In this document: positions 18,252 through 53,346 of the stretch, one piece after another
How the letters are laid out: each line of letters starts with the position of its first letter
Numbering within the stretch: the stretch's first letter is position 1
Origin: a candidate division TA06 bacterium B3_TA06
Lineage (GTDB): Bacteria; Hydrothermota; Tepidihabitantia; B3-TA06
DNA length: 64,000 nt
Reading direction: 5' to 3'
NCBI GenBank assembly: GCA_005223075.1
Contig: NJBO01000001.1
Location: 124,001 to 188,000 of the forward strand
Translations under genes and position numbers: made by a program
Notes under the pieces: model-generated
What the model was told of the DNA's origin: nothing
Databases searched by the model: none
The model's input: only the letters and a program-made list of their open reading frames with translations

Positions 18252-18300
18252 CGAAACCTTTTAGAACCCCGGATACGTCTTATTCCACGGAATAAAATCG

Positions 18301-18328
18301 TTGACATCACGGTATTTCTTCTTAGACT
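18301..18328 (+). promoter_or_regulatory. Promoter of the DUF3108-manC-rdgB run
   Basis: TTGACA (18301-18306), 16-nt spacer, TAGACT (18323-18328), immediately followed by AGGAGT and the ATG at 18340. Confidence 0.75.
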
Positions 18329-18339
18329 AGGAGTGGACG

Positions 18340-19032
18340 ATGAAGTTACTCTTATTTATATATTTGGCGTCACTGCCTCACAAGGAGGTGCTGACCTACG
18401 ACGTTCACCTGGGGCCCATATACGCGGGCCAGATGGAGCTTTTCTTCTACGAGGCCACCTTCGAAGGACAGCCCTGCTACTCTCTCCGCTCGGTCCTGAA
18501 TTCGCTTGAGAGCCTTGCCTGGCTTTTTACAATCAACGATACCTTCTACTCATACGTAACCCGCGATTCATTCAAGGTGCTCTACTTCGAGAAGCGCATG
18601 CACGAGACCAACTATGATACCGTAATAAGGGTGCGTTTCGACTGGGAGGGTCAGCGCATCTGCTACGAGGACGGCTCCTCCTACCCGCTCCTGCCCGGCA
18701 CCCTGGATGTGGTCTCGATCTACTATTACTTCAGACTGAACTCCCTGGCAGTGGGCGAGGAACGCGACGTTGTCCTGCACGCGGACCGGATAACCGAGCA
18801 AGCAACGGTCAAGGCGGTGAAAGATGTTGCGGTGCGATCGCAAGCCTCACCAACCGGGAGCTTTGTCTGCACCAAGCTTGTGCCCGACGTTCGAGGCAAG
18901 GGCAGCTTTGGCTCAGGAGGGAACCTTATCTTCTATCTTACGAACGACGAGAACCTCTATCCTGCGTTAATCAGAACAGTTATGACCATCGGCTCCATCA
19001 ACGCGCGCCTGAAATGGGTATGGAGCGAATAG
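18340..19032 (+). CDS. DUF3108-type envelope protein
   Basis: Protein of 230 residues that matches the DUF3108 pattern: an opening KEVLTYDVHLGPIYAGQMEL, YSLRSVLNSLESLAWLFTINDTFYSYV, then LDVVSIYYYFR and a C-terminal PALIRTVMTIGSINARL. Members are periplasmic beta-barrel-like proteins of unknown activity in Gram-negative bacteria. The N-terminus is a short hydrophobic stretch (LLLFIYLASL) that may act as a signal peptide. It starts a run of same-strand genes continuing with mannose-1-phosphate guanylyltransferase 36 nt downstream, so a role in the cell envelope fits but is inference. Confidence 0.75.
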   Translation: MKLLLFIYLASLPHKEVLTYDVHLGPIYAGQMELFFYEATFEGQPCYSLRSVLNSLESLAWLFTINDTFYSYVTRDSFKVLYFEKRMHETNYDTVIRVRFDWEGQRICYEDGSSYPLLPGTLDVVSIYYYFRLNSLAVGEERDVVLHADRITEQATVKAVKDVAVRSQASPTGSFVCTKLVPDVRGKGSFGSGGNLIFYLTNDENLYPALIRTVMTIGSINARLKWVWSE

Positions 19033-25816: not shown

Positions 25817-25826
25817 GCAAAAAAGC

Positions 25827-25892
25827 TGGACAAAAGATGGTCAAAAGATGGTCAAAAGATGGACAAAAGTTGGACAAAAGTTGGACAAAAAT
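25827..25892. repeat. 11-bp tandem repeat, six units
   Basis: Six units of TGGACAAAAGA with small changes (TGGTCAAAAGA, TGGACAAAAGT). It directly abuts the sorting-domain remnant. A G/T-rich stretch follows to about 25930. Confidence 0.85.
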
Positions 25893-26434
25893 GGGGCGAT
25901 TTTGGGGTTTTTTGAGGTGTTTTGGGGTAAATCCCCGCCCCCTTAATCCCCCTCCACCGAGGAGGGGGAATTTTTAAATGAAGAAGGTCGGCGGGCCGAC
26001 ATTACGCGAAGCGCACAACCGAAAGTTGTGAACGTCAGCCCATACGATCTTGTCCACCTTCGATTACAACTCACAAATTATCTGTAGGGGCACGGCATGC
26101 CGTGCCCCTACCTTAGGATGGAGATATTAAACGGCCTGAAGAGGCCGTTCTACATTCCCCCGCCCCCTTTATCCCCCTATCCTATGGGGTGCAGTAAAGT
26201 TAGCACCCCAAGGGGCACACTGTCCACCGGGGAGGGGGAAATCTCAATCGTCGCAAGTTCCCCTTCCCTTGTGGAAGGGGTCGGCAACTCGCAGAGTTGA
26301 CGGGGGAAGGGGGAGGAATTATTTTGATCCCTCCGACCACTCTTAGGAGCGGCCACCTCCCTTAAATCCCCCCGCCCTTCGGGCACCCCCCTTCAGAAGG
26401 GGGGCAAAGCAGTATCAATGAGGATACAGGGGGA
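25893..26434. repeat. Repeat-filled intergenic region
   Basis: No gene. It holds several CCCCCTT/AAGGGGG inverted repeats (about 25930-25965, 26155-26180, 26260-26310, 26370-26405), a perfect palindrome C (26085-26110), and the ACGGCCTGAAGAGGCCGT hairpin (26131-26148). Confidence 0.55.
26085..26110. repeat. Palindrome C, copy 2
   Basis: Perfect 26-nt palindrome starting TAGGGGCACGG. Compared with the copy at 8199, A/T and C/G changes are mirrored on both arms. Confidence 0.75.
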
Positions 26435-28060: not shown

Positions 28061-28093
28061 TCGGTGTTACGGTGTTACGGTGTTACGGGATTG

Positions 28094-51720: not shown

Positions 51721-51728
51721 TAATTAAA

Positions 51729-51812
51729 TGCCGAGAGGGGGAGTTGAACCCCCACGGGGTTGCCCCCACTAGCTCCTGAAGCTAGCGCGTCTGCCTGTTC
51801 CGCCATCTCGGC
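51729..51812 (-). tRNA. tRNA-Leu (anticodon CAG)
   Basis: Class II tRNA of 84 nt on the minus strand: acceptor GCCGAGA/TCTCGGC, anticodon stem CTAGC/GCTAG with loop TTCAGGA, long variable arm GGGG GCAA CCCC, T-arm GGGGG TTCAACT CCCCC, discriminator A. CCA is not encoded. The first 14 nt of the gene and the flanking leader are repeated upstream (see the array). Confidence 0.97.
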
Positions 51813-52320
51813 ATTATTACAAATCTTTTCGGTAGATGGCTCCTTTTTAGTTCAGGCAACTTCGTCGCCTGCGTTCGCTGCGACCTTCGTCCGCAGCTCA
51901 TGTCCGCCATCTCGGCATTATTACAAATCTTTTCGGTAGATGGCTCCTTTTTAGTTCAGGCAACTTCGTCGCCTGCGTTCGCTGCGACCTTCGTCCGCAG
52001 CTCATGTCCGCCATCTCGGCTATTATTAAATCTTTTTATGTTGATGGCTTCACCCTTTGGTCAAGCAACTGCGTCGCTTGCGTTCGCCACGACTTATACC
52101 CGTGGCTCACGTCCTGCCATCTCGGCTTCTATCAGCTTCGAGAAAAGAAGTCTATACAATCATGCCGGAAAGTCAAGCAGCTTAGCCGGTTGCACTCGCC
52201 TCGACCTACGGCCCATACTCACGACCTCCATCTCGGCAAGTTCGATGTCGGCACTCTTTGATAAAGCAACTACGTCGCTTCCGCTCGCTCCGACCTTCTC
52301 CCAGAGCTCGCGTCAACCCT
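51813..52320 (-). repeat. Tandem ~104-bp structured repeat array upstream of tRNA-Leu
   Basis: Units begin at about 51800, 51904, 52008, 52114 and 52225 (spacing 104, 104, 106, 111). Each carries the first bases of tRNA-Leu (GCCGAGATGG). Units 1 and 2 are identical; 3 and 5 are diverged but keep two hairpins read on the minus strand: one with a 6-bp stem and 9-nt loop (51897-51877, 52001-51981, 52106-52086, 52307-52287) and one with a 7-8-bp stem and 3-nt loop (51871-51853, 51975-51957, 52080-52062, 52280-52264). Stem changes are compensated. Unit 4 is decayed and holds a promoter. Confidence 0.8.
52149..52176 (-). promoter_or_regulatory. Likely promoter of tRNA-Leu
   Basis: On the minus strand TTGACT (52176-52171), 16-nt spacer, TAGACT (52154-52149). 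The transcript would start near 52142 and carry three repeat units (about 330 nt) before the tRNA. Confidence 0.7.
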
Positions 52321-52347
52321 TGCGTTCGCTCCCCTCTTGAATACAAT
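52320..52347 (+). promoter_or_regulatory. Promoter of the alpha/beta hydrolase gene
   Basis: TTGCGT (52320-52325), 16-nt spacer, TACAAT (52342-52347). The expected +1 is 52354, the A of the ATG. Confidence 0.65.
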
Positions 52348-52353
52348 AAATCA

Positions 52354-53346
52354 ATGTTCCGTGCTTACTCCCGGCGTGTAGATCGACGCCTATTCAGCGC
52401 TATCAACCGATGGCTTGCCCAGCGTGGTGACCGCACCGATCCCATAAAGCTTCGCCGCTTCACCGCAAGCGCTGAGAAAGCGAGCCCTGAGGAGTTCTTC
52501 TCTCTATCCAAACGAACCCGTGTTGAACTCAAAAGAACCTCGGAGTATCCCCTAAGCTATACGTTCCGTTTCGACTCCCCCTTGTCTTCAGGATACGGTG
52601 AGAACGACTTGGCGCAAGGAGAGTTTTTTCCCAAACATCACCTCTCTGCTCCGGCGGTGATAGTGCTTTCAACCTGGCTTGAGGGAGCGACCGATTACTC
52701 GCGTTTGGCGCATTGGATCGGACTTTCCGGCCGCAATCTGTGGGCGATGGACCTTCCCTACCATGGGCGCCGCGCACCTCGAGAAACCCGTTCCGGCGAG
52801 CTTGCCATCACCGCAGATGTAGTGCGTACCCTTCGAGCCGTCAGACAGGCGGTTTGCGATGCGCGCGTTTTAATAGGCACACTTTGGGAGTTGGGATCAA
52901 GGGATATAGCGATTCTGGGTTTCAGCCTGGGCGGCTGGGTTGGTTCTTTGCTTGCACTTGCAGAACCTAAGGTTTCAAAAGCACTGCTCCTCACCCCGGT
53001 CGTGCGGCCTGAGGAGCTCTTTCTTAATTCGCCTCTCTTTAGTGCCCTGCGCAACGGCGTGCGAGAGCAAGACAGGGTTCAGGTCTTCAACAAGCTCCGC
53101 CACCTCTTTTTACCTGTGCATGGAATGCCGGTGATAGATCCAGAGCAGATCCATCTTATCGGCGCGCACGAGGACCCGCTTGCGCCACCGGACTCTTTAA
53201 GGGAACTTTCGTTGGGTTGGGGGTGCGGCGAGGATATACTTCCCGGCGGACACATAACCGTTTATCTCACCGGCCGGCTCTGGCGCAGGATATTCAGCCT
53301 CCTACACCCCAACCAGTCGCTACGCAACTGGTCGGGGATCCCTTAA
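52354..53346 (+). CDS. Alpha/beta hydrolase
   Basis: Serine hydrolase-like protein of 330 residues. The nucleophile elbow is GFSLGGWVGS (Ser at about 192), preceded by LWAMDLPYHGRRAPRETRSG with an oxyanion region and ending with an acid loop (LIGAHEDPLAPP) and His in GGHITVYL, giving a full catalytic triad. The fold resembles the ABHD18-type family. The substrate is unknown; it is probably a lipid or ester. The last dozen residues (HPNQSLRNWSGIP) are encoded by palindrome B. The ATG coincides with the predicted +1 and has no ribosome-binding site. Confidence 0.85.
   Translation: MFRAYSRRVDRRLFSAINRWLAQRGDRTDPIKLRRFTASAEKASPEEFFSLSKRTRVELKRTSEYPLSYTFRFDSPLSSGYGENDLAQGEFFPKHHLSAPAVIVLSTWLEGATDYSRLAHWIGLSGRNLWAMDLPYHGRRAPRETRSGELAITADVVRTLRAVRQAVCDARVLIGTLWELGSRDIAILGFSLGGWVGSLLALAEPKVSKALLLTPVVRPEELFLNSPLFSALRNGVREQDRVQVFNKLRHLFLPVHGMPVIDPEQIHLIGAHEDPLAPPDSLRELSLGWGCGEDILPGGHITVYLTGRLWRRIFSLLHPNQSLRNWSGIP
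53305..53342 (-). repeat. Palindrome B, copy 10, in the hydrolase 3' end
   Basis: ACCCCAACCAGT and ACTGGTCGGGG arms around GCTACGCA. Read on the minus strand it is the usual GGGG...loop...TTGGGGTG form. It supplies the last codons of the hydrolase. Confidence 0.65.

Follow-up and report, generated by a model that had tools for sequence, protein, structure and literature searches.

Tandem copies of the tRNA 5' end in the predicted leaders of tRNA-Leu(CAG) and tRNA-Ser(TGA) in one Candidatus Stahlbacteria/WOR-3 family

The 5' leaders of bacterial tRNAs are usually short; RNase P, in its established role, trims them, and they are then discarded. Tandem repeats within a tRNA transcription unit are known from the tyrT operon of E. 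coli (rtT RNA), where they lie downstream of the tRNA and carry its 3' end. REP elements of the GTAG and CGTC superfamilies have a terminal unpaired GTAG or CGTC tag beside a short palindrome (PMC3733652). The E. coli 3'ETS-leuZ is a pre-tRNA spacer that acts as a sponge (PMC8166272). Here we describe pre-tRNA leaders of one WOR-3 family in which copies of the start of the tRNA precede the tRNA itself. These leaders look both real and undescribed; we found no published account of the kind in the open-licence literature.

The window, by which we mean the whole stretch of 64,000 nucleotides that was analysed, comes from a draft genome of 42 contigs (here G000) whose closest named relatives are metagenome bins of Candidatus Stahlbacteria/WOR-3. 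The features of the tRNA-Leu(CAG) locus are as follows.

51728-51813, minus strand: tRNA-Leu(CAG) gene (ARAGORN; Rfam tRNA, 54.6 bits)
51813-51916, minus strand: leader unit 1, with a tRNA-start copy (51904-51916), a two-hairpin module (51849-51904), the arm GCCATC (51835-51840) and an AT-rich linker
51917-52020, minus strand: leader unit 2, identical to unit 1, with copy (52008-52020), module (51953-52008) and arm (51939-51944)
52021-52126, minus strand: leader unit 3, with copy (52114-52126, 1-2 mismatches), module with compensatory changes (52058-52113) and arm GCCATC (52043-52048)
52127-52237, minus strand: unit 4, degenerate, with a tRNA-start copy (52225-52237) and an eroded module (52170-52225) that overlaps the promoter
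52149-52176, minus strand: promoter TTGACT-N16-TAGACT, inside unit 4
52238-52330, minus strand: unit 5, upstream of the promoter, with a module (52259-52314) and no tRNA-start copy
52345-53346, plus strand: divergent neighbouring gene, an alpha/beta hydrolase

A full Leu unit comprises an AT-rich linker, a 13-base copy of the tRNA start, a two-hairpin module of 56 nt and the GCCATC arm, and Tandem Repeats Finder describes the array at 51799-52087 as 2.8 copies with a period of 104 and 91% match. Exact copies of the tRNA start, GCCGAGATGGCGG, begin at 51916 and 52020, the same start being found at 51812 in the tRNA itself, and inexact copies, each with 2 mismatches in 14, begin at 52126 (GCCGAGATGGCAGG) and 52237 (GCCGAGATGGAGGT). 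A first-pass annotation of this DNA had described about five units that each open with the first bases of the tRNA; we count four copies besides the tRNA itself, and the fifth unit has the hairpins without the copy. Both here and at the tRNA-Ser(TGA) gene discussed below, the copies resemble the tRNA only as far as base 13-14, where the 5' strand of the D-stem finishes. No tRNA remnants past the 5' end were seen in the array, and ARAGORN and Rfam identify only one tRNA here.

Compared with dinucleotide shuffles, units 1 and 2 (z -4.2) and unit 3 (z -3.8) fold well, while unit 4 (z +0.6) and unit 5 taken whole (z -0.3) fold no better than the shuffles, although both hairpins are retained in unit 5 despite this score. 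Hairpin 1 has an additional outer helix past a GA/GA internal loop. An additional helix is formed within one unit by pairing of the tRNA copy with GCCATC. For analysis of covariation we used 17 distinct leader copies of the module in an alignment fitted to the structure, in which 93% of the module cells are paired, as against about 30-35% in slid alignments. Both-sided changes are found in 12 of the 18 module pairs, and the covariation score of 0.427 (0.199 when shuffled) was reached by none of 500 shuffles. A covariance-model search of the relatives, proposed along with the first description, located the module in 6 of the 8 genomes of the family, and a lack of covariation in homologs, which would have spoken against the element, was not what we observed. 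In Rfam (cmscan) only tRNA passes at the curated threshold, with no cis-regulatory family (T-box and others) among the matches, and the idea of a structured, covarying and apparently undescribed element has therefore held up. In the variable columns, read on the tRNA strand, G-U occurs 16 times and A-C 6 times, and two other columns are nearly invariant G-U; the proposal that G-U pairs form only on the tRNA strand is accordingly right as a tendency but not exclusive. We take this excess, seen at the level of sequence, as a modest sign of RNA-level constraint, and covariation by itself cannot tell RNA function from a DNA palindrome.

No second promoter was seen near tRNA-Leu at this locus besides that at 52149-52176. 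Its -35/-10 boxes, TTGACW-N16-TAGACT, are kept in all six readable family genomes (our own, G001, G004, G005, G006 and G007), with the end of the -10 box 254-336 nt upstream of tRNA-Leu(CAG) across the three genera that they represent; the sequence of the spacer is identical within our own genus and diverged in G005-G007, its 16-nt length being the same throughout. By comparison, most own-genome tRNAs with a locatable promoter have one of the form TTGACA-N16/17-TATAAT-like that ends 5-15 nt upstream, a minority having longer leaders, and the promoter of tRNA-Leu(CAG) in other families lies mostly 7-57 nt upstream (at one such locus, L071, a close promoter was not recognised). Transcription at our locus is expected to start near 52142 and to give a leader of about 330 nt. 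Since the distant promoter is kept in relatives, promoter distances elsewhere are short and no other promoter was found, units 1-3 should be transcribed and are very probably part of the tRNA-Leu precursor, where the first-pass annotation had placed them. The opposing case, transcription starting directly at the tRNA, fails in silico. It was probably within this family that repeats came to separate the promoter from the tRNA.

Outside the family the module was found nowhere convincing among 147 genomes of the phylum; the one weak match, in G063, has flanks that look coding by eye. Within our own genus G001 shows 92% identity across the whole array, and G005, G006 and G007, which represent two further genera, share this plan, their units having diverged strongly. 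G004 has kept the promoter and modules and its tRNA copies are gone. In G002 only 12 nt of the contig precede the tRNA, as expected had an array broken the assembly. A relative of the hydrolase is found on the array-bearing contig in G001 and G004. The tRNA-Leu leader is the only module site that we found to be common to all three genera, and no tRNA-Leu copies were found in other families of the class. When 146 tRNA leaders were scanned for self-copies, the top twelve were all Leu(CAG) or Ser(TGA) leaders of this family, and the other tRNAs gave no clearly separated self-copies. What might be self-copies in leaders of family f10 (L062 and L067) is best taken, by eye, for the 3' end of a coding gene lying upstream.

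The tRNA-Ser(TGA) gene provides a second case. Its leader has 1-6 units derived from its own 5' end in 7 of the 8 family genomes (our own and 6 of 7 relatives), with six units in G003 and no copies in G005. The tRNA starts with GGAGGGTTAGCGTAAC and its leader units are typically GARAGGTTAGCRTACG. In our own genome the array is located as follows.

G000 contig C17 (L145, L159), 18287-18616, minus strand: tRNA-Ser(TGA) leader, two tandem units of ~57 nt each

The Ser promoter, TTGACA-N16-TAGRCT, could be recognised in five genomes, and the distance from its end to the tRNA is 83-249 nt; outgroup Ser(TGA) leaders have no comparable copies and, where a promoter was recognised, are 8-83 nt long. 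The Ser units have the self-copy without the two-hairpin module of the Leu units, and their copy-arm helix is weaker than that of Leu, being strong only in the last unit of G003, G006 and G007. Since folding of the Ser-unit consensus gave almost no structure and a hand-drawn Ser helix showed little covariation, we make no strong RNA claim for Ser. Judged from the sequences, the Ser case is independent of the Leu case, and the phenomenon is therefore a recurrent one rather than an isolated accident. The Leu array is conserved over three genera and the Ser array over two, with sequence and copy number varying.

Some other leaders and repeats may be recorded here. A tRNA-Ser(CGA) (L149; tRNA at 2364-2448 of G000 contig C20) comes directly after a long near-perfect hairpin, TATGCGGGCACG...CGTGTCCGCATA, and leaders of 40-140 nt, some of them hairpin-rich, precede several other tRNAs of the family. 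At 28062-28088, 3.4 copies of the octamer CGGTGTTA lie in tandem between the promoter and tRNA-Pro(CGG), and at 25821-25894 there are 6.8 copies of the 11-bp AAAAGATGGAC, a word that is also present in dispersed intergenic repeats of our own genome. Many such word-like intergenic repeats were seen in this genome (L005-L030), including GCGACGNAGTCGC palindromes, AGCTGGTCAAAAGATGGACA, CTCCGCAAGCGTCGCCCTCCGGTG, GACAGCTGACGGC and TGCAAAATGCAAAT, and these are often mixed.

Pairing between the Leu copies and arms, GAUGGC/GCCAUC, has a mean energy of -11.9 kcal/mol, compared with -7.4 kcal/mol when the arms are shuffled. In Leu unit 2 of G005 the copy is altered to GAAAUGGCGG and the arm is CCGACAUUUC. 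The arm of each Leu unit could instead pair in silico with the 5' end of the real tRNA, and in G004, where the arm has outlasted the copies, it does pair in silico with the 5' end of its tRNA. When whole precursors were folded with the copies shuffled, the tRNA 5' end paired more with the leader in all five copy-bearing genomes, and with the arms shuffled, acceptor-stem pairing fell in four of the five. In several genomes tRNA folding was likewise upset when other leader stretches of equal length were shuffled as a control, and for this reason the foldings are only suggestive of a neutralising role; they lend weak support to the view that copy and arm may be self-neutralising.

We lean, if only slightly, towards the reading that the arrays are tandem partial-tRNA duplications in a transcribed leader, with a REP-like module and RNA-level structure, in which mimic and arm probably neutralise each other. 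It takes as given the copies, the modules and their covariation, the conserved distant promoter, the parallel Ser(TGA) array and the restriction to one family. To these it adds that the leader would be transcribed and then removed by RNase P, that the mode of origin would be duplication instead of repeat insertion, which we infer, and that copy and arm would have the self-neutralising role. The leader and the 5' part of the tRNA would have duplicated in tandem, yielding the copies, and this would do no harm, since promoter and final complete tRNA survive and RNase P would trim the leader. An unpaired mimic could pair with the 3' acceptor strand of the tRNA, and an unpaired arm could do so with the tRNA 5' end; by pairing with each other the two would be neutralised, and RNA-level structure would be kept for this reason. 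The palindromic module would be one that also occurs in the family's REP-like intergenic repeats. Since G004 lost its Leu copies and G005 is without Ser copies, such copies are not essential. Active regulation of the tRNA by the leader is possible, and the first-pass suggestion that the element may control tRNA processing or expression is to that extent open to support, whereas its structured and covarying element in the precursor is supported here.

A stronger form of that possibility is that the leader is a functional regulatory RNA, its units serving as mimics or decoys of the tRNA and so timing its folding or its maturation by RNase P, or being released as small RNAs, a fate open to pre-tRNA spacers in E. 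coli. The same two tRNAs are kept across genera while sequence and copy number change, the module covaries strongly, and the alternative pairing of the arm with the real tRNA 5' end could act as a switch. Against these points stand a copy number that ranges from 0 to 6, with the losses in G004 (Leu) and absence in G005 (Ser), and our failure to see any loop conservation common to the Leu and Ser units, and we consider such a role possible but on the unlikely side. The specific proposal of a leader class peculiar to this lineage, in which tandem 5'-end mimics and antisense arms form a cis-acting switch or timer that governs how tRNA-Leu(CAG) and tRNA-Ser(TGA) fold and are matured by RNase P, and so set the supply for CUG and UCA codons, is a speculative one to which we would give rather little credence.

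A different view is that the arrays are selfish DNA, made up of REP-like palindromes that inserted and multiplied in tolerant tRNA leaders, perhaps through Y1/RAYT transposases, and whose structure is that of a DNA hairpin. In genus g3 many scattered intergenic sites carry the module, often head to tail (22 matches in G007 and 7 in G006), and since it is not leader-specific there, an origin as a repeat element is possible; the leaders may have acquired the module in the form of a REP-like repeat, or have been the source from which it spread. Our own genome has about 25 sites with palindromes like hairpin 2, GCGACGNAGTCGC; as tRNA-leader elements these were rejected, because only 1 of 26 scanned loci held a tRNA and most lie amid other repeat-rich intergenic DNA. 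Y1_Tnp genes are present in 7 of the 8 family genomes, and in G007 a Y1_Tnp domain in a 952-aa frame (contig C7, 99682-100986) lies about 1 kb from a two-hairpin module. However, the full module was found in our own genus at tRNA-Leu only, the dispersed modules of G006 and G007 have no tRNA-start copy, the Ser units have the self-copy but not the module, and G-U exceeds A-C on the tRNA strand, so that selfish DNA seems to us a distinctly unlikely account of the arrays. Attachment sites can be marked by repeated short tRNA segments, and the copies could be scars left by an element that integrates at the 5' end of the tRNA, but this is highly improbable given the regular spacing of 104 bp, the lack of an integrase among the five neighbouring genes examined, the same hydrolase neighbour in relatives and the same pattern at a second tRNA. 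An artefact of metagenome-bin assembly is scarcely credible: the identity of units 1 and 2 could cause copy number to be miscounted, and the G002 contig begins 12 nt from its tRNA, yet independent bins from other species and genera show the same architecture with diverged units.

This family of uncultured bacteria retains leaders of roughly 80-340 nt in which the 5' end of the tRNA itself is copied, at two class II tRNA genes and in the same places across genera, and the Leu units diverge yet keep their pairing. They would represent either a new control of tRNA maturation or a clear natural example of partial tRNA duplications that survive by self-folding. The likeness to REP elements and BIMEs lies in short palindromic units that are dispersed and partly tandem between genes in the sister genomes, and in the presence of Y1-type transposases. 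Unlike them, the module has two hairpins and 56 nt and is confined in our own genus to one tRNA leader; no conserved terminal GTAG or CGTC tag was visible by eye in the module alignment, CGTC occurring only inside a stem. As with 3'ETS-leuZ, a non-tRNA portion of a tRNA transcript could be freed by processing, but here it is a 5' leader that bears repeats. No match to the rtT RNA family was obtained with cmscan at gathering or permissive thresholds. The arrays resemble tyrT/rtT in being tandem repeats in a tRNA transcription unit that each contain a piece of that tRNA gene; they differ in lying upstream, in the leader, where they carry the tRNA 5' end, and in having self-complementary arms and occurring at two tRNA genes across genera.
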